DNA from: Candidatus Microthrix parvicella Bio17-1
GTDB taxonomy: Bacteria; Actinomycetota; Acidimicrobiia; Acidimicrobiales; Microtrichaceae
Length of the DNA stretch: 64,000 bases
Assembly (NCBI RefSeq): GCF_000299415.1
Contig: NZ_AMPG01000001.1
Span: 1,302,001-1,366,000, forward strand
Direction of reading: 5' to 3'
Each line of letters starts with the position of its first letter. Within the stretch, counting starts at the first letter, position 1. Both the position numbers and the translations under genes were made by a program. Below the pieces are notes generated by a model. The model saw only the letters and a list, made by a program, of their open reading frames with translations, ran no database searches and was not told the DNA's origin. This document shows positions 42,396-54,429 of the stretch, piece after piece.

Positions 42396-42944
42396 TCAGC
42401 CGGCGGCGCTCACGGCGATCACGATGGTTTGGGCCACCGTGGCAGTGTGGGTGGCCGAGACCAACCATCCGCCGATGCCCGCTGCATCGGCCAGTGGAGC
42501 CGCAGCTCCGCCGACCCGGAGCTCCGGAGCTCCCGTTGGGCCCCGCACCAGCTCTACATCATGGAATCCCACCGGGCCGATGCCACATCCCAACGCTTTG
42601 GCCACCGCCTCCTTTGCCGCAAAGCAAATGCCCAGGTGCCCGATCTCATCCCCGCCGGTTGCAGCATCGACCAACTCGGTCGAGGTGAAACACCGCTCTC
42701 GCATCGCGGGGGTCCGCTTGAGCACGGCGTCCAACCGGGGCACATCCACCGAGTCGATCCCCACCGCCACCGCGTTGGACGGCCTGGCTGCCGATGGCCC
42801 TTCCCCGTCCGGCAGCCCTCCGCTGAACCGCACATCGGCGGCCAGGTGAAGCCCCGCTTGAGCCTCGGTTGGGTCTGCGACGTCCGCGAAGTTGGGGCGC
42901 TCCGGCATCGGACCGTTGGAGGCCAACCAGTGGATCGGGCTCAT
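42396..42944 (-). CDS. acpS: Holo-acyl-carrier-protein synthase, N-terminally extended
   Basis: Attaches phosphopantetheine to ACP. The AcpS core begins VAVGIDSVDVPRLDAVLKR and contains FAAKEAVAKALG, the conserved E-x3-K signature. The core alone would be about 124 residues from a GTG at 42770. From the ATG at 42944 there are 58 extra residues without recognised features. The ATG is 14 bases after the giant glmS stop. Which start is used is uncertain. Confidence 0.88.
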   Translation of the reverse strand: MSPIHWLASNGPMPERPNFADVADPTEAQAGLHLAADVRFSGGLPDGEGPSAARPSNAVAVGIDSVDVPRLDAVLKRTPAMRERCFTSTELVDAATGGDEIGHLGICFAAKEAVAKALGCGIGPVGFHDVELVRGPTGAPELRVGGAAAPLADAAGIGGWLVSATHTATVAQTIVIAVSAAG

Positions 42945-42958
42945 GGAACCGCGCCCGG

Positions 42959-45900
42959 CTAGCCCGACGCCGGGGCGCTGCGCCAACGCTCGGCCAGCTC
43001 CAGCACCGGCAAGGCCAGGAGGTCGATCACGCGTTGCTCGCCCAGGAGGTCGTCTCGGAAGTGCTCCTCGGTCTCGGTGACCGCGTCGCTCAGCCCCTGA
43101 TAGCGACGGCGATAGCCCTGCAACACGCTGCGAGCGGTGGAGAATGCCAGCCGATCGGCCAGCTCGACGTGCAACAGCACCAGGCCGGTGGTGATGCCGT
43201 CCTTCAGTTGGGGAATGATGATGACGGTTCGCCCATCGGTGCGACCGCGAGTCACCAGCAACTCCTGTTCGCGGGCCACCAGGTGCTTGGTGCCCCGCAA
43301 GCGGGGGTCACGTTCCAGGCGGGAGGTCAGTGCAGCGGCGACCCCGCCCTTGTCCAGCACGGTGGCGGTGGGGGCATCGCTGTCGCCGTCGGTCACGTCG
43401 TATCGCACAAAACCACGTACATCGAGCACCGCAGGCGACAGGTCGGCCAGCGTTCGCAGGGTGCGGTAGCTGATGCGGTCCCGGTTGGCCCCGGCAGCGA
43501 AGAGTTCCTTCACCAGCGGGATCTCCAGCACGGACTCGTCGCTGCGGCTGATGCCGACGGTGACGGTCTTGGCCTGATGCTTGATGGCGTCGATCGGGCG
43601 GGTCAGCTCGTCGATGGCGTCGTTCAACGCTGCCGTCAGGTCGTCGACCACCACCGCCGGGGTGCCGATCCTGCCTTGCTCCACCTGGTAGGCGTCCAGC
43701 GGCGACGTGCCCAGCGCAAAACGAAATGCCGTTGCAACGCGATGAGCGGTTGAGGCCTCGAGGTGACCGTTCAGCTCACCGGCCCGGAGCGCCGAGAACC
43801 AGGTGGCGGCGCTTTGGGCCAGTTCGTCGTTCAGCCGGGTTAACAGCTCACCGGCGTCTGCGCCCTCGGCCAACGCCCCCTCGACCACTACCCGTGCCTC
43901 CCGCAAAATGCCCGCCTGTGCATCGATCGCCAGCGCCGCCTCATACCCAAACAGGTGACCGGCCATCGCCGACAGGATGAACGCGAGGCGAGGGTGCGTC
44001 TCTGGCACCGAGATCAGGTGCATCGCAGCGGGAAACTCGCTGGCGCCCTCGGTTGCGATGACGATGGGGGCGGCCTCGTGGGCCCGGAAGATGGCTACTT
44101 CCTTGCCCACATCGGCAGCGGTGGAGCCCACCAATCCGGCAGCGCAGATCAGGATCAGCGGCTCCGACGATAGGTCGATGTGCTTCTTGTCCTCGGTGGC
44201 ATCACATGCCATCGACTTGTAACACAGCTCCGACAACTTGATGCGCAGTTCGCGGGCCGAGATGATGTTGGGCCCGTTGCCCACCAACGCCCAATAGCGC
44301 CGAGACACGGCGAAGCGCTGGGCGGCCTCGGCGCATTGGGGACGGACCCCGAGGGTGGCCTCCAAGACGACGGGCATCTGCGCCAGCGCAGCCAACACCT
44401 GCTGTTCGGCGGGGTCATCGGCGGTGCGGGCGCCTGAAATCTCTGAGGCGATGCCGTACGCAAGCAGCAGTCCGGCTGCGATCTGGGAGTAGAACGCCTT
44501 CGTCGAGGCCACCGACATCTCGACGTCGCGGCCGTCTGCGGTGTACAGCACACCATCGGACTTGTCGACCAGATCGCTGTTGCGCCGGTTGACGATGGCC
44601 ACCACCCTGGCGCCCCGGCCGCGGGCCAGGTCGACGGTGCGGTTGGTATCGGTGGTGGTGCCCGACTGGCTGATCGCCACGATCAGCGTGTCGGACATGT
44701 CCGAACGCAGTTGGAACCCGGAAAGCTCGGTGGCGGGCAGCGCTTCCACATCGACGTCGGTGTCGCCAAGCAGGTTGGCGAGCTGAAAGGCCAGGCTCTG
44801 ACCCGCCACTGCGGCGGTGCCCTGACCGATCACCAACACGCGGTCGATCGTGCCGTCACGGAGCGAGCTGCGGACGTCTTGGGGCAGGGTGGCGGTGGGA
44901 AGCCGCACCTCGTGACCGCCGTCCGCGCGCTCCAACAGTTTGCCGCGAAGGGTCTTGGCGAACGATGACGGGGCGTCGCCCAGTTCCTTCAGCAGGAAGT
45001 GGGGATGATCACCCCGGTCGATGTCACGAGTGGTGACCTCGGCGGTCACCACGTCGGTCTCACTCAGCGGCAACTCGGTACCGTCGTAACTCCAACGGTT
45101 GATCCCCTCAACCTGGCCGGCGGCGGCGGCGTCCAACCGGACGATCTGGCCCCTGGTGGCATTCGCATTGGCGGGATCACTCGGGGTCTCACCGTCCATG
45201 CGCACGTAACGGGAGGTCTCTTCCACCACGCCGTAGGGCTCCGAGGCGATGACGAACGCGTCGTCGGCCAGGCCGATGTACAGGGCCTGACCGGATCCAC
45301 GCAGCGCCAGCATCAGTTCGTCGGGATGCGCCGCGCTGTGGCCGGCGATCGCCACGGAACCCTCCATGGGCGCCACCGCATTGCGGAATGCAACCTCACC
45401 GGCGAGCCCCTCGGCCAGACGCCGGCTCCAGAGCACGGGAATGACCTTGGCATCGGTGGTGACTTCGACAGGAAGCTCGAGGGCTTCCGCAGCCGCCAGG
45501 TCCGCGTGATTGTCCACATCGCCGTTGAGCACCGCCGTGGTGAACGGGGTGGTCCCGACCGGCGTCGCCCCGGCGCGAAGCTCGGCCACAACAGCAGCCT
45601 CCTCGCTGGACTGCGGGTGGGCGTTGGCCTCCGAAATGATGCCGACGGAGGCCCAACGGGTGTGACCGAGCACCATCGTCCAAGCGTCAGGCGACTCCAG
45701 CGCAAGACTCAGCAGCTCATCGTTTTGTATTTCCGCGCGAATCGACGCGGTGTTGTCGCCCAGTTCCCCAATCTCAGCAGCAGCCTTGTACACGAAGCTC
45801 AACGCACCTTCCGGGGTGCGCACCGCGCCGGAGCCGAAGAGCGGCATCCGCCGGGCCTCCAGAAGCGCCGAAATCTGGGGCGAGTCGAGGTCGAGGCCGT

Positions 45901-46438
45901 GGCCCGTGACCAACAACTGAATACCTGCCGAATCGCGACCGCGAACCTCCAGCCGGTCGAGCGCCGAGAGTGCCTGGTGCACCGACAGGCCGGCCGCCAT
46001 CGCACCGGGCGACGGATCCGCGCCCATCAGGTCGACGATGCCGACGGCTGCCCGAAGACGATCCCGGGCGATGGCCCACGACGGGTCCCGCAGGGCGATC
46101 AGCCCGGCGTTGATCGCCTCAACCTGATCGGCGGGCACGTCCCCGGCCGCCTCGGCCGCCTCGATGCGATCGGCCAGGGCATTCAGGCGTTCGCAGGTCA
46201 GGCGCAACTCGGTGACACGCCGGGGGTCGGCCAACAGCGACGCAGCCCCGTTGAGACCCCGGAGCGATCGGTCAACCTCGGTGGCGGCCGCAGCAGCGGC
46301 GCCCAGCGCCTCCCAGCTTGGGGTGGGGCCGTCGCCTGCGAGACGATCGGCGGCGTGGTCCAACTGTGCGACCAGCGGAGCAAGATCGAGGCGATGCACC
46401 GCCGCGGGTCGACGCAACAGGGCGATGATTCCACACAT
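42959..46438 (-). CDS. glmS: Oversized glucosamine-6-phosphate synthase-like protein (GATase + SIS + extensions)
   Basis: 1159 residues; ordinary GlmS is about 610. Starts MCGIIALL, so Cys2 is the likely glutaminase nucleophile. A helical insertion of about 130 residues (20-150) precedes LEVRGRDSAGI (164-173). GHTRWA is at 258-263, NAHPQ at 272-276 and LNGDVDNH at 304-311. HFLLKELGDAPSSFAKTLRG (480-499) matches the GlmS linker. SIS motifs are ISQSGTTTDTN (589-599) and VASTKAF (643-649). The usual ELKHGP region reads EDKKHIDLS, and HQAKTVTVGI (954-963) replaces the usual C-terminus, followed by about 195 extra residues. It sits in the normal glmS position next to glmM. AAGGAG precedes the ATG. 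Confidence 0.88.
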   Translation of the reverse strand: MCGIIALLRRPAAVHRLDLAPLVAQLDHAADRLAGDGPTPSWEALGAAAAAATEVDRSLRGLNGAASLLADPRRVTELRLTCERLNALADRIEAAEAAGDVPADQVEAINAGLIALRDPSWAIARDRLRAAVGIVDLMGADPSPGAMAAGLSVHQALSALDRLEVRGRDSAGIQLLVTGHGLDLDSPQISALLEARRMPLFGSGAVRTPEGALSFVYKAAAEIGELGDNTASIRAEIQNDELLSLALESPDAWTMVLGHTRWASVGIISEANAHPQSSEEAAVVAELRAGATPVGTTPFTTAVLNGDVDNHADLAAAEALELPVEVTTDAKVIPVLWSRRLAEGLAGEVAFRNAVAPMEGSVAIAGHSAAHPDELMLALRGSGQALYIGLADDAFVIASEPYGVVEETSRYVRMDGETPSDPANANATRGQIVRLDAAAAGQVEGINRWSYDGTELPLSETDVVTAEVTTRDIDRGDHPHFLLKELGDAPSSFAKTLRGKLLERADGGHEVRLPTATLPQDVRSSLRDGTIDRVLVIGQGTAAVAGQSLAFQLANLLGDTDVDVEALPATELSGFQLRSDMSDTLIVAISQSGTTTDTNRTVDLARGRGARVVAIVNRRNSDLVDKSDGVLYTADGRDVEMSVASTKAFYSQIAAGLLLAYGIASEISGARTADDPAEQQVLAALAQMPVVLEATLGVRPQCAEAAQRFAVSRRYWALVGNGPNIISARELRIKLSELCYKSMACDATEDKKHIDLSSEPLILICAAGLVGSTAADVGKEVAIFRAHEAAPIVIATEGASEFPAAMHLISVPETHPRLAFILSAMAGHLFGYEAALAIDAQAGILREARVVVEGALAEGADAGELLTRLNDELAQSAATWFSALRAGELNGHLEASTAHRVATAFRFALGTSPLDAYQVEQGRIGTPAVVVDDLTAALNDAIDELTRPIDAIKHQAKTVTVGISRSDESVLEIPLVKELFAAGANRDRISYRTLRTLADLSPAVLDVRGFVRYDVTDGDSDAPTATVLDKGGVAAALTSRLERDPRLRGTKHLVAREQELLVTRGRTDGRTVIIIPQLKDGITTGLVLLHVELADRLAFSTARSVLQGYRRRYQGLSDAVTETEEHFRDDLLGEQRVIDLLALPVLELAERWRSAPASG

Positions 46439-46654
46439 CGTGGCAACTCCTTGGGCCGAGAGGGGATCGGCGTGTTTGGTGAGCTTGGTTGACGAAGCCG
46501 CCCACGCGGTGGCGGGCCCACCAGACGATCGGTTGCAGGAGTCTCAGTGTAGGACTTGCCGATCAGTCCCGCCTCCCACACCACCGGCCGGGCCTCAACC
46601 TCTGCGATCCGGTCTGGTACTCGGCCCTGCCCGCCGGTGGACCGACGCCGCAGG

Positions 46655-48034
46655 TCAGGCGGCGGCCGCCCGAGCGACCTCGGCTGCGAGTTCGTCGGCA
46701 ACTTCGGCGGCCAATTCGGCGGTTGGCGCCTCCACCATGACCCGCACCACCGGCTCGGTGCCGGACGGGCGGATCAGCACCCGGCCCTCGTTGCCCAGCC
46801 GGGCTTCGGCGCGGTCGACCGCATCACCGATGCGGTCGAGCAGGTCGGGCGGACGCACATCGAGCGACACGTTGCGAAGTTGCTGGGGCAGGCGCACCAT
46901 GGCGTCGGCGGCCAACTGGTGCAGCGTCTGCCTGCGGTTCGCCATCACCCGCAACAAACGAATTGCGGTGAGCAGGCCGTCGCCGGTGGTGGCAACATCG
47001 GCAAAGATCACGTGGCCGGACTGCTCGCCGCCCAGCACCAGCCCCTCTCGGGCCATCGCGTCAACCACGAAGCGGTCACCGACCGGAGTAACCACCACGC
47101 CGACGCCGGCGGCCTCCATCGCCTGACGAAAACCCAGGTTTGACATCACCGTGACGGCCACGGCGGAATTGTCCAGCTTCCCGGTGCGTGCCAACTCCAA
47201 GGCGCAGACGGCGATGATCTGATCGCCGTCGATGTTGTTGCCGTGTTCGTCGACGGCCAGGCAACGGTCGGCGTCGCCGTCCAGCGCGAAGCCAACGGCG
47301 CCGTCGGTGTTCAGCACAGCTTCACGCAACGAACCGAGAGCGGTCGAACCGACACCGTCGTTGATGTTGATGCCGTTGGGCAGGTCGCCGATGACGGTCA
47401 GCTCGACACCAAGGCGGCGCAAGGCCCTCGGACCAACAGCCGATCCGGCGCCGTGGGCAGCGTCCAGCACGGCCACCATGCCGTCGAGCGCACCGTCACC
47501 ACCGCCGGCGCGCACCAACTCGGCCACGTAGTCCTCGGAGACCTGTGGCTCCCACTGAATTCGCCCCACGTCGGCACCGGTCGGCGGCGGGAGTTCCTCG
47601 GCGGTCTCGCCGGTGTCGAAGACCCGCACCCCACGCCCGGTGGTGAGGATCGTCATGATCGTGGTCTCGATACGGGTCTGTTCGGCATCGGAGAGTTTCT
47701 GCCCGCCGGGGCCAAACACCTTCAGACCGTTGTCAAAGAACGGGTTGTGTGATGCCGACACCATGACGCCGGGACAGCCACGCACCCGCGCCTCACGGGC
47801 TACCGCAGGCGTGGGAATCACCTCGAGTTCCATCGCATCGGCCCCCGCCGACGCCACCCCGGCCGACACGGCTGCCGCCAGCATGGCACCCGACTGTCGG
47901 GTGTCGACCCCGATGACCACCTCGTCGGCGTCGAACGCGTCGACGACCGCCGAACCCAGAGCGAGGGCGTACGTGGGGGTCAACTCGGTGTTGGCCACCC
48001 CCCGCACACCATCAGTGCCGAAGCGCAAACTCAT
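46655..48034 (-). CDS. glmM: Phosphoglucosamine mutase
   Basis: 459 residues. Converts glucosamine-6-P to glucosamine-1-P for UDP-GlcNAc. SLRFGTDGVRGVAN at the N-terminus, phosphoserine motif MVSASHNPFFDNG (Ser95), the metal loop GDADRCLAVDEHG and the C-terminal sugar-phosphate motif RPSGTEPVVRVMVEA. It follows rpsI by 39 bases and precedes the glmS-like gene by 216 bases, the classical order. Confidence 0.96.
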   Translation of the reverse strand: MSLRFGTDGVRGVANTELTPTYALALGSAVVDAFDADEVVIGVDTRQSGAMLAAAVSAGVASAGADAMELEVIPTPAVAREARVRGCPGVMVSASHNPFFDNGLKVFGPGGQKLSDAEQTRIETTIMTILTTGRGVRVFDTGETAEELPPPTGADVGRIQWEPQVSEDYVAELVRAGGGDGALDGMVAVLDAAHGAGSAVGPRALRRLGVELTVIGDLPNGININDGVGSTALGSLREAVLNTDGAVGFALDGDADRCLAVDEHGNNIDGDQIIAVCALELARTGKLDNSAVAVTVMSNLGFRQAMEAAGVGVVVTPVGDRFVVDAMAREGLVLGGEQSGHVIFADVATTGDGLLTAIRLLRVMANRRQTLHQLAADAMVRLPQQLRNVSLDVRPPDLLDRIGDAVDRAEARLGNEGRVLIRPSGTEPVVRVMVEAPTAELAAEVADELAAEVARAAAA

Positions 48035-49075: not shown

Positions 49076-50155
49076 TCAGATGTCGGAGGTGAAGTGCACC
49101 TGCGGAGTTCCCACGGCCCGTGCGACCTCCCCGATGACCGCGCCCGCGGTGTCGACGCTTCGAGCCGCAGCGATGACCAGGTCGGGGTTGGGTGTAGCCA
49201 CCACCATGCCGATACCCAGGTTGAACACGCGACGCAGTTCGTCCTCGGCCACGTTGCCTCGACGGGCGATCTCGGAGACGATCGGCGGGCGTTCCCAGGT
49301 TGTGGGGTCCAGGCGGGCCTCGGTGCCCTCAGGCATGGCCCGCGGCAGGTTTCCCACCAACCCGCCCCCGGTGATGTGTGCGATCGAGTGCACCGGCGCC
49401 TCGGCCAACATGGCCATGATCGCCGGGGCGTAGATCACCGACGGGCACAGCAACTCGTCGGCCACGCTGGGCCCAACGGGTGCATCGGCGTAGGCGGCTG
49501 CGGCCAGCGAACCCGCAGGATCGTCGGGGTCGATCAGCACGGCCCTGGCCAGGGAGAAGCCGTTGCTGCGCAGCCCGGGCGACGCCAGGCCCACCAACGC
49601 GTCGCCGGGGGCCACGGCATCGCCCGTGATCAACCGGTCACGCTCCACGACACCGACCGCGAACCCGGCCACGTCGAGCGCGTCGGGGTCCATGGTGCCC
49701 GGGTGTTCGGCCATCTCGCCGCCAACCAGCGCACACCCGGCGGTCTCGCAACCTTCCACCAGGCCGGACATCAGTATCTCCACCCGGTCGGGATCCAGGC
49801 GACCGACGGCCAGGTAATCGAGAAAAAACAACGGCTTGGCGCCGGAACACACCAGATCGTCCACCACCATGGCCACCAGATCGAGCCCGACGGTGTTCCA
49901 CCGGTCGGCCAAGCGGGCAACCTCCAACTTGGTGCCCACCCCATCGGTGGAGCTGACCAGCACCGGCCGTGCGTACCCGGCCGGTAGTTCGAACAGACCA
50001 CCAAACCCACCGATGTCGGCGATCACACCCGGCGTGTGCGTGCGGCGCAGCATGGGAAGAATGCGCCGAACCGCCTCGTCGCCGGCATCGAGGGAGACCC
50101 CTGCGTCGACGTACGTCGCCCCAGTTCCGACCGCTTCGCGCGCGGGGTTGGTCAC
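49076..50155 (-). CDS. purM: Phosphoribosylaminoimidazole (AIR) synthetase
   Basis: 359 residues from a GTG at 50155 that overlaps the purF stop as GTGA. Closes the imidazole ring of AIR from FGAM with ATP. Typical elements: TYVDAGVSLDAGDEAV, VLVSSTDGVGTKLEVA, CSGAKPLFFLDYLAVGRL, ALVGGEMAEHPG and HITGGGLVGNLPR. Last gene of the purL/purF/purM side of the cluster. Confidence 0.95.
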   Translation of the reverse strand: MTNPAREAVGTGATYVDAGVSLDAGDEAVRRILPMLRRTHTPGVIADIGGFGGLFELPAGYARPVLVSSTDGVGTKLEVARLADRWNTVGLDLVAMVVDDLVCSGAKPLFFLDYLAVGRLDPDRVEILMSGLVEGCETAGCALVGGEMAEHPGTMDPDALDVAGFAVGVVERDRLITGDAVAPGDALVGLASPGLRSNGFSLARAVLIDPDDPAGSLAAAAYADAPVGPSVADELLCPSVIYAPAIMAMLAEAPVHSIAHITGGGLVGNLPRAMPEGTEARLDPTTWERPPIVSEIARRGNVAEDELRRVFNLGIGMVVATPNPDLVIAAARSVDTAGAVIGEVARAVGTPQVHFTSDI

Positions 50156-51750
50156 GACCCGACGCCGACCGGGCTTACCACGACGTCGTCGTAGAGGGTC
50201 GGCTGAGAGGTCACCGGGGTCGGTGCCTGCTCCAGCACATGCTTCCCCAGGTTGACGGGTATCTCCACCGGATAGTGGCCGGTGAGGCATGCGGCGCAGA
50301 ACTGGTCGGCCGGATCAAGATCGGTACCGGGCGTGGGGCCGACCGCGGCGAGCAGTTTGTCCAACTCCAGGTACACCAGGCTGTCAACCCCCAGGTACTC
50401 CTCGATCTCGGGCACGGTCATGTTGGCGGCCAACAGGGTCTCACGGGCGCCGGTGTCCATGCCGTAGTAGCACGGCCAGCGATACGGCGGGGACGAGACC
50501 CTCATATGCACCTCCGCGGCACCGGCGTCAAAGAGCATTGCCACCATCGCCTTGGTGGTCGTACCCCGCACAATCGAGTCGTCGACCACCACCAGACGTT
50601 GACCCTCGATGGTGTCGCGCAACGGGTTGAGCTTCATGCGCACTCCGAGGGCGCGCACCTCCTGCGTCGGGGCGATGAAGGTACGGCCGATGTAGCGGTT
50701 CTTCACGAGCCCCTGACCAAACGGAATACCGCTGGCCCGGGCATAACCCTCGGCCGCCGGGATGCCGGACTCCGGCACGCCCATGACCATGTCGGCCTCC
50801 ACCGGCTGCTGGGTGGACAGCACCTCCCCCATGCGGACCCGGGCCTGGTGCACCCCTCGGCCACCAAGGAACGTGTCGGGACGGGCGAAGTACACAAACT
50901 CAAACAGGCACAGCGTGGGGTTGATGCGGTCCTCAGCAAAGGGAAAGTGGCTCTGCGGCCCGTCATCATCGATAACGACCACCTCGCCAGGCGCAATCTC
51001 CCGCACCAGCGTGGCGCCCACCACGTCCAGCGCCGCGGTCTCCGAGGCCAAGACCCAGTCGTCGCCCAGCGAACCCAGCACGAGCGGGCGGAAGCCGTTG
51101 GGATCGCGCACGCCGATCACCCGGTCGTTGTCCATCAGCACCAGCGAGAACGCCCCCTCCATACGGGGGGCCACCGCGCACACAGCCTCCACCAGCAATT
51201 CGTCGTCGGAAACACCCCGATTGCGTTGGACCTCGATATCGCCTGCCAACAGTTCGGCCATGAGGTCGGTGTCCGACGAAATGGTGCCCGGCAACGTGGC
51301 GGTTTCGGCGGCCAGGGCGGCCGTATTGGTCAGGTTGCCGTTATGCCCCAACGCAAAGTTGAGGTCGCCGGTGGAGCGGTACACCGGCTGGGCGTTCCAC
51401 CACTCGCTGGACCCTGTCGTGGAATAGCGGGTGTGGCCGATGGCCAACTCGCCATCGAGCGCCGCCAGCGTTCGATCATCAAAGACATGCGAGACCAGCC
51501 CCATGTCCTTCGTGACCGTGAGGTGCTCACGGTCGCTGACCGCCATGCCGGCGGACTCCTGACCCCGATGCTGCAACGCATAGAGACCCAGGTAGGTCAG
51601 GTGCGCAACGGCACGACCGGGCGCCCGCACCGCAAAGACGCCACAGGCCTCCTTGGGCCGATCCGCGTCAGGGTCGATCACCTCGGTCGGCGCGTCGCAG
51701 ACGCCCGTCCCGGGTCCATGGATAAGGGCCAAATCGTCCGGGGGAGACAT
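50152..51750 (-). CDS. purF: Amidophosphoribosyltransferase
   Basis: First committed step of purine synthesis. 532 residues with a propeptide; the nucleophile is Cys36 in KEACGVFAV, exposed after cleavage. GHTRYSTTG, HNGNLTN and the PRPP motif VVVDDSIVRGTTTKAM are present. Cys residues in TLCLFE, WPCYYGMD and the CAAC pair near the C-terminus fit the Fe4S4 cluster ligands of the Bacillus-type enzyme, including oxygen sensitivity. It lies 86 bases downstream of the small membrane protein gene. Confidence 0.96.
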   Translation of the reverse strand: MSPPDDLALIHGPGTGVCDAPTEVIDPDADRPKEACGVFAVRAPGRAVAHLTYLGLYALQHRGQESAGMAVSDREHLTVTKDMGLVSHVFDDRTLAALDGELAIGHTRYSTTGSSEWWNAQPVYRSTGDLNFALGHNGNLTNTAALAAETATLPGTISSDTDLMAELLAGDIEVQRNRGVSDDELLVEAVCAVAPRMEGAFSLVLMDNDRVIGVRDPNGFRPLVLGSLGDDWVLASETAALDVVGATLVREIAPGEVVVIDDDGPQSHFPFAEDRINPTLCLFEFVYFARPDTFLGGRGVHQARVRMGEVLSTQQPVEADMVMGVPESGIPAAEGYARASGIPFGQGLVKNRYIGRTFIAPTQEVRALGVRMKLNPLRDTIEGQRLVVVDDSIVRGTTTKAMVAMLFDAGAAEVHMRVSSPPYRWPCYYGMDTGARETLLAANMTVPEIEEYLGVDSLVYLELDKLLAAVGPTPGTDLDPADQFCAACLTGHYPVEIPVNLGKHVLEQAPTPVTSQPTLYDDVVVSPVGVGS

Positions 51751-51836
51751 TTCAATCAGTGTGTCATGGAAGCGCGGTCAACACCATGTTCTGTCCGACA
51801 TCGGGGCCAACCGCAGATCTTCTGACGAGCCGCTGT

Positions 51837-52094
51837 TCACGAGCCGGGTGTGGCGGTGATCACGCGTGGTGCGTCAGGACTCGGAGGAGCGACGCCCGGA
51901 TCGGCGATGGCGAGACACAGAATGATGAGGGATGGAATCAGGATCATCGCCAAAAAGATGAGCGGAGTGAGATCCCGCATCGACCTTCGGGGGTTGAAGG
52001 ATCGCTTCGAGCCACCGCCACCATGGCTGTCCAGGTCCGACGAGCGTTCTTCGCCGCCCGGCCCGTGGGGGGCATTCAGGTTGGGCGTGGTCAT
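51837..52094 (-). CDS. Small single-pass membrane protein within the purine cluster
   Basis: 85 residues from the ATG at 52094, with AAGGA 6 bases upstream. A polar Gly/Ser/His-rich half (residues 1-47, with GGEERSSDLDSHGGGG) is followed by one helix (LIFLAMILIPSLIILCLAI) and a Pro-rich tail ending VITATPGS. It is placed between purL and purF on the same strand. No family recognised; it may be a bystander. Confidence 0.65.
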   Translation of the reverse strand: MTTPNLNAPHGPGGEERSSDLDSHGGGGSKRSFNPRRSMRDLTPLIFLAMILIPSLIILCLAIADPGVAPPSPDAPRVITATPGS

Positions 52095-52137
52095 GGCTGA
52101 TCCTTCGACGCAGCACCGGAGCCAAAACAGTTTTGGT

Positions 52138-54429
52138 TCACTCCGCCAGATTGCCGGAGGCAAGCGCCCCAGGCAACCGGCTGCGCCAGTTGCCCTGCAG
52201 CACGTCGACTTCAACGGTCACCGTGGCACCAAGTCGCAGGTTGAACCCTCCGGCTTCGCCGGCAACAACCGTTGAAATTCCAACGGATTCGGCTCGACCA
52301 AGTACCTGACCAAGATGCTCGGTGTCGACCGTCACCACCATGCGGCCGGCCGCCTCCCCAAACCATCCACTGACGGTGTCAGCCAAGGAGGAATCCGAGT
52401 CGGCATCGACTTCCAGGCCGATCCCCCCGGCCAAAGCCATCTCGGCCAGTGCCAACGCAAGCCCCCCCTCGGACACGTCGTGTGTTGCCGTCACCAACCC
52501 CTCGGCCACGAGCGAACGAACCAGGTCGGCCAAGACACGGACCATCGCCAGGTTGGGTTCGGGCACCCGACCGCCCTTGAGGCCCTGATCCCACGCCCAG
52601 CGAGAACCGGCCAGACCGTCCACGAACGAACCCAGCACCACGACGGTGTCGCCGTCGCTCAGCGCCATTCCCGGCGGCACCGCCGAGAGATCGTCGATCA
52701 TGCCCAGCGTGGTCACCACCGGAGTGGGGTCGATGTCACGGCCGCCGGAGCTGTTGTACAGGCTCACGTTGCCACCCACCACCGGCAGGTCCATCACCCG
52801 ACATGCCTCCGACATGCCGTCGATCGCGCCCGACAGCTGCCACATCACCTCGGGATGCTCAGGGTTGCCGAAGTTCAGGCAGTTCACCAGCGCCAGCGGT
52901 CGGGCCCCGACCGCAGCAAGGTTCAGCACCGACTCGCACACCACCATGGCGGCGCCCCGCTCCGGGTCACTGGCACACCAGCGGTGGTTGCCATCGGCAC
53001 TGAGGCCCAGGCCACGACCGGTGTCGGCCCCGCTGCGCGGGTCTCGCAGGCGCAGCACCGTGGCGTCACCACCCGGGCCCACCACGGTGTTGAGGTAGAG
53101 CTGGTGGTCGTACTGGCTGTACACCCACGACGTGTCCATCATCATCGCCAGCAGCGCATCGCTCTGGTCACCGGTGGCGTCCGAGCCTCCCGAAGGTGTA
53201 CCGCCGGGCTCCCGTGTCCAGCGAGCTTCCAGATCGTCCGGCGGCGCCAGCGGACGACGATACAGCGGCGCATCCTCGTGCAGCGTTGCTGCAGGCACCT
53301 CGGCCAGCAACTCGCCGCCCTCCTCGTCGAACACCCGAAGCAACCCGCCGGTGGTCACCGTGCCGATGGCCGAGGCCCGCACCTCCCAAGCATCGGTGAT
53401 CGTCAAAACCTCGTCCAAGTGAACTGGTTCGACGATCGCCAGCATCCGCTCCTGGCTCTCCGAGGTGAGCACCTCCACAGCACTCATGTTGGGCTCTCGT
53501 TGGGGAATGGCGGAGACGTCGACGTCCATCCCCATGCCCGCGTTGGACGCCGTCTCCGAGGTGGCACACGTCAGGCCGGCACCACCCAGATCTTGAATCC
53601 CCACCACCAGACCGGCGTCCAGCAACGCCAGCGTGGCCTCGATCAGGCGCTTCTCCTCGAATGGATCCCCCACCTGCACGCTGGGGCGCTTCTCCTCATC
53701 ACCCTCGGCAAACTCCGCTGACGCCAGCACGCTCACACCGCCGATGCCGTCTCGCCCGGTGGAGTTGCCCAGCAGCACCGCCAGGTTGCCCTCGCCCGAC
53801 GCCTTGGCCAGCACGAGCCGCTCGGTTGGCAGGATGCCAAGACAGAACACGTTGACCAACGGGTTCTCGGCGTAGGTTTCGTCGAACACCACTTCGCCGC
53901 CGACGGTGGGGATGCCCACCGAGTTGCCGTATCCCGACACACCCGAGACGACCCCCTCGGCGATCCAGCGACTGCGGGCATCGTCGAGCGGACCAAACCG
54001 CAGCGGGTCCATCAGGGCGATCGGTCGGGCGCCCATGGTGAAAATGTCCCGCACGATGCCGCCGATGCCGGTGGCCGCACCCTGGTAGGGCTCGATGGCC
54101 GACGGGTGGTTGTGGCTCTCGATGCGCAGGGCAACAGCGATGCCGTCACCCACGTCGATGACCCCGGCGTTCTCTCCCGGGCCCACCAGCACCCACGGGG
54201 CCTCGGTGGGAAACCGGCGGAGATGTATCCGAGAGCTCTTGTAGGAGCAGTGTTCGGACCACATCACCGAGTACATCGCCAGCTCGAGGTCGTTGGGCCC
54301 GCGGCCCAGCAGTTCGCCGATCTGGGCGAACTCCTCGTCGGTCAGGCCAAGCGCCTGATGGAGGGGGGGACCGGATGCAACGCCATCTGATTCGACGTCG
54401 GATGCGGCCTGAGGGGAGGGGTCGCTCAC
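52138..54429 (-). CDS. purL: FGAM synthase large subunit (small-type PurL)
   Basis: 763 residues, the short bacterial form that works with PurS and PurQ. Seen: [69 protein letters not shown] and the second-half signature [19 protein letters not shown] start at 54429. First gene of the purL - membrane protein - purF - purM unit; it diverges from the surE-like gene over 220 bases that should hold both promoters. Confidence 0.96.

Follow-up and report, generated by a model that had tools for sequence, protein, structure and literature searches.

The gene at positions 42959..46438 on the minus strand of a 64,000-nucleotide stretch of Candidatus Microthrix parvicella Bio17-1 (contig NZ_AMPG01000001.1, positions 1,302,001 to 1,366,000; hereafter the window) encodes a GlmS-like protein of about double size, which appears to be the housekeeping glucosamine 6-phosphate (GlcN-6-P) synthase of its host and to belong to an old GlmS subfamily carrying add-on, possibly allosteric, modules. 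We put the probability of this reading as a whole at about 0.72, and the case for a housekeeping GlmS within it is strong. GlmS catalyses the first step committed to making cell-wall amino sugars, one that is normally essential. The conserved residues, the architecture, the mutual exclusion with canonical GlmS, the chromosomal slot and a single case of C-terminal domain loss, all described below, are read directly from sequence comparisons. The original prediction, made from the letters of the window, had proposed a regulated or substrate-shifted GlmS variant in the housekeeping glmS slot.

The open reading frame (ORF), stop codon included, was recognised by GlmS-like NCBIfam matches below cut-off and by its AlphaFold2 model. 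It starts with ATG, has AAGGAG immediately 5' of the start codon and encodes 1159 amino acids (aa), with a GC content by codon position of 0.715/0.491/0.818. Its coordinates and size agreed with the original prediction, and the motifs named there were all present, namely the N-terminal Cys, RGRDSAG (residues 166-172), GHTRWA (258-263), the SIS motifs, EDKKHIDLS (749-757) and HQAKTVTVGI (954-963). The architecture is common to 76 distinct aligned long forms, that of the window included, so it is not due to chance or to a fusion peculiar to one genome. In one relative (locus L187, genome G043) an otherwise complete long-form gene has a frame shift near residue 757, which is either an assembly error or a true break. 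An open frame of 497 aa on the plus strand (window 44999-46492) overlaps the gene and is most likely a shadow of high GC.

The extra residues were placed by aligning GlmS of E. coli (L035, NC_000913) with 28 long forms; all features given here lie on the minus strand. The catalytic N-terminal Cys, kept in 76/76, lies on the first glutaminase strand (residues 1-8, 46415..46438), which is followed by insert 1 of about 130 residues (residues 9-138, 46025..46414), for which the AlphaFold2 model gives helices at 19-35, 42-59, 61-70, 72-97 and 103-138, thereby bearing out the predicted 130-residue helical insertion from residue 9 to about 138. Insert 2 adds about 35 residues, judged by region length, between RGRDSAG and GHTRWA (residues 179-232, 45743..45904), and about 20 further residues follow HPQSSE, with another 20-30 or so near the end of the glutaminase domain. 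The first SIS (isomerase) domain (residues 476-665, 44444..45013), placed by the Pfam SIS match at 532-660 and by structural match, and the second (residues 666-842, 43913..44443), placed by alignment and structural match, have approximate ends. Between the second SIS domain and the catalytic tail lies insert 4, of about 105 residues (843-947, 43598..43912), assigned from region lengths and helices in the model. The catalytic C-tail, recognised by conservation and its match to E. coli, is thus internal (residues 948-966, 43541..43597) and carries K957, the counterpart of E. coli K603. It is followed by 194 residues (966-1159), in agreement with the 195 or so additional residues claimed earlier; these form a PAS/GAF-like C-terminal domain (residues 967-1159, 42962..43540) according to the structure model and a fold match to 7jsr. 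Insert 4 and the smaller insert around 179-232 come in addition to the parts listed in the original prediction.

These proportions held throughout the 76 long forms: the first region measured 138-163 residues against 10-25 in canonical proteins, the pre-tail region 102-118 against 0, and the post-tail region 185-205 against 1. Mean pairwise identity across long forms was 0.93 in the tail, the best conserved stretch, 0.65-0.66 in the SIS domains, 0.53 in the C-terminal domain, 0.49 in insert 4 and 0.33 in insert 1, the least conserved large part. No convincing relative of insert 1 was found in Pfam or among PDB sequences, PF12699 being matched at E 0.0078, under its cut-off. The full-length AlphaFold2 model, built with 68 sequences, had a mean pLDDT (predicted local distance difference test) of 88.8 and a predicted template modelling score of 0.82, with tail residues 950-966 below a pLDDT of 50. 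By Foldseek and VIA, residues 2-964 of the model match GlmS/GFAT, with Z 41.1 to 6r4i_B (root-mean-square deviation, rmsd, 4.3; 602 residues aligned) and Z 40.5 to 1jxa_A (rmsd 4.8; 593 aligned) in VIA. The match to E. coli GlmS extends to model residue 964, equivalent to E. coli residue 608.

The residues of both active sites were compared in an alignment of the 76 long forms, 10 canonical relatives and E. coli GlmS, whose numbering is used here. Identical in 76/76 long forms were C1, R26, D29, R73, W74, N98, G99 and D123 on the glutaminase side and S347, Q348, S349, T352, V399, S401, E481, K485, E488, H504, A602 and K603 on the synthase side. In the protein of the window, E481, K485 and E488 correspond to E730, K734 and E737 (44228..44251), and H504 to H753 within EDKKHIDLS (44180..44182). 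Since 67 of the 76 rows had been selected using the patterns EDKKHID and [AF]EIGELGD, invariance inside these patterns is partly a matter of selection; EDKKHIDLS, its His included, was equally invariant in an alignment of 15 independently chosen rows from a whole-protein search (A1). Therefore, EDKKHIDLS retains the catalytic His and HQAKTVTVGI the catalytic Lys: both motifs do differ from the usual ones, as originally noted, but the catalytic residue is kept in each. As all compared catalytic residues are kept in both active sites, the altered sugar site claimed earlier amounts mostly to altered neighbours, namely G505, adjoining the catalytic His, which is I in 76/76 long forms, and S303, which is A in 76/76 (8 S and 2 A in the canonical relatives). 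H77 is also changed, to V, I or M. The glutaminase catalytic residues we take to be C1, R73, W74, N98, G99 and D123, and the catalytic His and second Lys of the human enzyme are presumed, from a constant offset, to correspond to E. coli H504 and K603. In human GFAT-1, PMC7000685 assigns catalytic relevance to Lys558, Glu561, His577 and Lys676 and states that they are shared by the enzymes from E. coli to human; PMC7948480 matches E. coli Lys485 and Glu488 to Lys559 and Glu562 of human GFAT2, and Trp74 to its Trp93.

In the broad sense the long form has the GlmS/GFAT fold and architecture, a single chain in which a glutaminase domain with N-terminal Cys precedes two SIS domains, along with the catalytic set C1, R73, W74, N98, G99, D123, E481, K485, E488, H504 and K603 in 76/76 proteins. 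It departs from the usual GlmS in that the tail is not the C-terminus, lying at 948-966 of 1159. The GlmS equivalog model TIGR01135 scored 203.2 bits, under its cut-off of 418.05, and NF001484 scored 227.5 bits, under its cut-off of 381; both models were matched at E ≤1e-10 by 15/15 long forms scanned. Pfam marked SIS (once) and GATase_6 only. Membership of the GlmD/NagB-II deaminases was not indicated by their models (NagB-II 54.5 against 430 bits, GlmD 15.7 against 580). Identity was determined on 602 core columns for 25 long forms, 10 canonical relatives and E. coli GlmS, 8 canonical loci having been dropped by the motif filter. Mean identity was 65% among the long forms, 29% between them and the canonical relatives and 26% between them and E. 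coli GlmS; the 10 canonical relatives were 43% identical to the latter. The long forms made up a single branch with a long stem. They are best read as a subfamily of GlmS that is old and distinct and scores under the cut-offs at which NCBIfam assigns the name. Because the scores fall so far below those cut-offs, an annotation built on NCBIfam models would make these bacteria seem to lack GlmS.

Other GlcN-6-P sources were looked for in the genome of the host, which is 95% complete at 4.20 Mb in 13 contigs. A search with the long-form protein at E ≤0.001 returned its own gene as the sole match, and TIGR01135 was matched at four places, by the long form, PurF, a 652-aa frame and a SIS protein. 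The match to PurF (window 50152-51750, minus strand) was rejected as a second GlmS, as were the 652-aa frame, which is asparagine-synthase-like judged from its start and length alone, and the SIS protein, the sole other SIS match in the genome, which is closest to phosphoglucose/phosphomannose isomerase models though below their cut-offs. The single PF01182 match was rejected as NagB, being pgl-like and adjoining zwf (123.7 bits against a pgl cut-off of 124.45). Thus, the check for a second standard glmS, suggested with the original prediction, left the long form as the sole GlmS seen, with no canonical GlmS, NagB or GlmD found in the 95%-complete genome. No Rfam family, the glmS ribozyme included, was matched at its gathering threshold in the whole 64-kb window. 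The purF gene belongs to a group of purine genes on the minus strand (window 49076-54429), in which purM- and purL-like proteins, judged by eye, stand alongside.

The gene is flanked upstream by glmM (46655..48034, minus strand; TIGR01455 450.8 bits, over cut-off), encoding phosphoglucosamine mutase, the next pathway step, and downstream by an acpS-like gene (42396..42986, minus strand; TIGR00556 over cut-off, start codon provisional). From a named genome collection, 80 of 473 confirmed long-form loci were analysed, and the neighbours of the window were compared with these 80 by tblastn. We found glmM upstream of the long form in 73 of them and at least one of acpS, nnrDE and alr downstream in 72, with order and strand identical in every locus having matches. 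Five of the seven loci lacking glmM have fewer than 310 bases before the gene, while L054 and L115 have more than 1100 without a match; similarly, six of the eight loci lacking a downstream match have fewer than 230 bases after the gene, while L063 and L081 have more than 1100 without a match. Among eight canonical loci fetched from the host's order, glmS lies between glmM and acpS in seven, one of which (L149) has a gap of about 2 kb before acpS, and the remaining locus (L147) has none of the slot neighbours. Eight long-form loci were fetched from outside the order, four in the slot (L142 being cut short before glmM) and four elsewhere. A midpoint-rooted FastTree tree of glmM with 78 tips, 7 of them carrying a canonical gene (24 of 102 loci yielded no full glmM and were left out), required four changes between long and canonical labels by parsimony, a weak hint that the two forms may have been exchanged repeatedly at this slot.

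The order was surveyed in 148 genomes of at least 90% completeness, the long form being scored by query residues 842-1159. The long form was present in 98 and canonical GlmS over cut-off in 49, with both in 0 and neither in 1; in this sample the long form replaces canonical GlmS in about two thirds of genomes. The Fisher p of this exclusivity is 1e-38, which ignores shared ancestry and is therefore no measure of independent events. With the long form as sole GlmS seen in the host, the conserved slot and no co-occurrence with canonical GlmS over cut-off in the 148 genomes, the prediction of a GlmS variant occupying the housekeeping slot has good support. The genome with neither form (G067; 1.8 Mb, 98% complete) is a genus-mate of G104; it could have lost the gene as part of a dependent lifestyle, or its assembly could have a gap there. 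The long form was found in 97 of 247 genomes of the class (at least 85% complete) and in 33 of 346 genomes of the phylum, 9 of these outside the order and 7 of the 9 outside the class. Genome G159 carries the long form in the usual slot and a canonical glmS elsewhere (L151, L152); the latter gave two matches of 402 and 242 bits in different frames, each below cut-off, and is perhaps decaying. The 80 named loci are labelled as Acidimicrobiia members or plain actinobacteria, four excepted, which by submitter labels are two Acidobacteria, one Bifidobacterium and one Thermoanaerobacterales.

The C-terminal domain, modelled alone from 55 sequences (residues 968-1159), gave a pLDDT of 96.5 and a fold of five predicted strands with flanking helices. 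In this model it most resembles PAS/GAF sensor folds, though the matches are modest. The Foldseek comparison with 7jsr, the large glutamate dehydrogenase (GDH) of M. smegmatis, gave E 0.015 and a template modelling score of 0.52 of the query; the second VIA match was a GAF domain at Z 7.3. None of the 55 domains matched a PAS/GAF Pfam family at E ≤0.1, DUF7124 was matched by 2 of the 55 (best E 0.0018), and no convincing sequence relatives were found in Pfam or among PDB sequences, nor any match at E ≤0.001 in a viral structure library. A large GDH was not found in the host genome by PF05088. Invariant charged or aromatic residues of the domain include K1051, D1068, R1070, Y1109, R1112 and E1122.

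A genome of the same order (G104) carries a long form that keeps the inserts, the core and the tail and lacks the C-terminal domain (L185:2404-5517). This protein ends in ...HQAKTVTVGISRR (AKTVTVGISRR), so that the tail is again the C-terminus; nnrDE starts about 20 bases after the gene and acpS is absent by tblastn. Three genomes of the same genus (G132, G157 and G178) have a full match to the domain. As a simple stop mutation would leave remnants of the domain, L185 looks like a clean deletion, and because its core persists, the C-terminal domain is probably a separable module without which the core can be kept.

We propose that the N-terminal Cys domain would hydrolyse glutamine and pass ammonia to the paired SIS domains, where K957 on the tail would form a Schiff base with fructose 6-phosphate and yield GlcN-6-P for GlmM, encoded next door. 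The helical inserts and the PAS/GAF-like domain, the latter joined directly to the catalytic tail, would be add-on modules. Added structure is joined to the tail at either end, so a change in insert 4 or in the C-terminal domain could shift the Schiff-base lysine and the ammonia path, and ligand-dependent (allosteric) control through the tail is the likeliest role of the C-terminal domain. The regulation suggested originally is plausible, but the domain after the tail is a better candidate for it than insert 1, the least conserved large part (0.33), and the comparisons gave no sign that insert 1 governs entry to the glutaminase site, as had been suggested. In its more specific form, a metabolite bound by the PAS/GAF-like domain would open or close the synthase site, in an old lineage that would have repeatedly traded places with canonical GlmS at a single slot; we offer this tentatively, at somewhat less than even odds.

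Several observations weigh against the reading of a housekeeping GlmS with allosteric modules. For the C-terminal domain, Foldseek gave no match at E ≤0.001, the best being 2.8e-3 (3e0y). The best VIA match, to residues 172-361 of the GDH in 7jsr (Z 9.3, 162 residues, rmsd 4.6 Å), is modest: best Z values of 7 to 8 are typical without a clear match, so 7jsr alone stands out, and not by much. When the domain was aligned by hhalign with 20 large GDHs from the phylum, the probability was 0.09%, giving one weak score and no sequence support. The domain loss in L185 is seen in one contig of one genome and may reflect misassembly. A second glmS may be missing from the assembly, as the host genome is 95% complete. 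Finally, exclusivity is not absolute outside the order, since G207, of another class, has canonical GlmS over cut-off together with the long form (L138, L154). The canonical and long-form stretches of that genome are alike in GC (0.738 and 0.749), and its contamination estimate is 5%.

The main rival holds that the protein is a GlmS whose extra parts are purely structural, serving a larger oligomer or stability with no ligand sensing, and we consider it unlikely on balance. The helical inserts are less conserved (0.33 and 0.49) than the SIS domains (0.65-0.66), as scaffolds would be, and the N- and C-terminal segments of large GDHs carry inter-subunit contacts according to PMC8175468. The C-terminal domain, however, has the invariant charged and aromatic residues listed above, and among known folds it comes closest to domains of the sensor type.

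A shift of substrate, with the long form a paralogue acting on another amino sugar phosphate, is improbable, although the altered neighbours at positions 505, 303 and 77 and the mean identity of just 26% to E. coli GlmS on the core columns would fit it. The other compared catalytic and phosphate-site residues are kept, E481, K485, E488, H504, K603 and S347/Q348/S349/T352 being found in 76/76 long forms, which argues against this part of the original prediction. Besides, within the order the long form replaces canonical GlmS at one and the same slot adjoining glmM, and the host genome yielded no alternative source of GlcN-6-P. That the gene is a one-genome artefact of fusion, frameshift or assembly error has a negligible probability: gene breaks do occur in some relatives (G043, G024), but the same architecture recurs in frames of about 1120-1300 aa across dozens of other genomes, the ORF exceeds 1100 aa in 78 of the 80 named loci, and every large part of the long form contains conserved residues.

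In many members of one actinobacterial class, the first amino sugar of the cell wall thus appears to be made by a double-size GlmS with extra, perhaps regulatory, parts; in relatives a gene of normal size occupies the corresponding chromosomal position. RNA-based control of GlmS is known in E. coli and Bacillus; a sensor-gated GlmS, if true, would instead mean allostery at the level of the enzyme and would control the entry of carbon and nitrogen into the cell wall in a large part of one bacterial class. Should the C-terminal domain indeed sense a ligand, the long form would clearly exemplify a central enzyme that has acquired a sensor domain, for which L185, a natural relative without the domain, would provide a ready control.

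No paper describing a long-form GlmS by title or abstract was found among open-licence literature. Canonical GlmS/GFAT (TIGR01135; E. coli GlmS, human GFAT-1) resembles the long form in placing the glutaminase domain ahead of two SIS domains, in both active sites and the catalytic C-tail, in its place beside glmM in relatives and in structure (Z about 40), whereas the long form is about twice as long, has several inserts and has its tail internal rather than at the C-terminus. Eukaryotic GFAT, with an internal loop and feedback by uridine diphosphate N-acetylglucosamine (UDP-GlcNAc), likewise has a GlmS core with lineage-specific extra sequence, although its loop is short and elsewhere. PMC7000685 describes a UDP-GlcNAc site in GFAT-1, and PMC7948480 an extra 46-residue loop in human GFAT2, proposed as an evolved regulatory device. 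GAF/fRMsr/PAS-like sensor domains resemble the C-terminal domain in the five predicted strands and flanking helices, with Z up to 7.3, but about 74-100 of the 192 residues align and the C-terminal helices lie outside most matches. The best fold match of the C-terminal domain is the N-terminal segment of L-GDH180 of M. smegmatis (7jsr). In that segment PMC8175468 distinguishes helical motifs, one domain of PAS type and three ACT-like domains, which it proposes to be metabolic sensors. Residues 172-361 of this GDH would presumably be its PAS region. The segment is N-terminal in the GDH and C-terminal in the long form, and sequence lends the comparison no support; in L-GDH180, too, an enzyme of nitrogen metabolism has gained additional domains, there of the PAS and ACT-like kinds.

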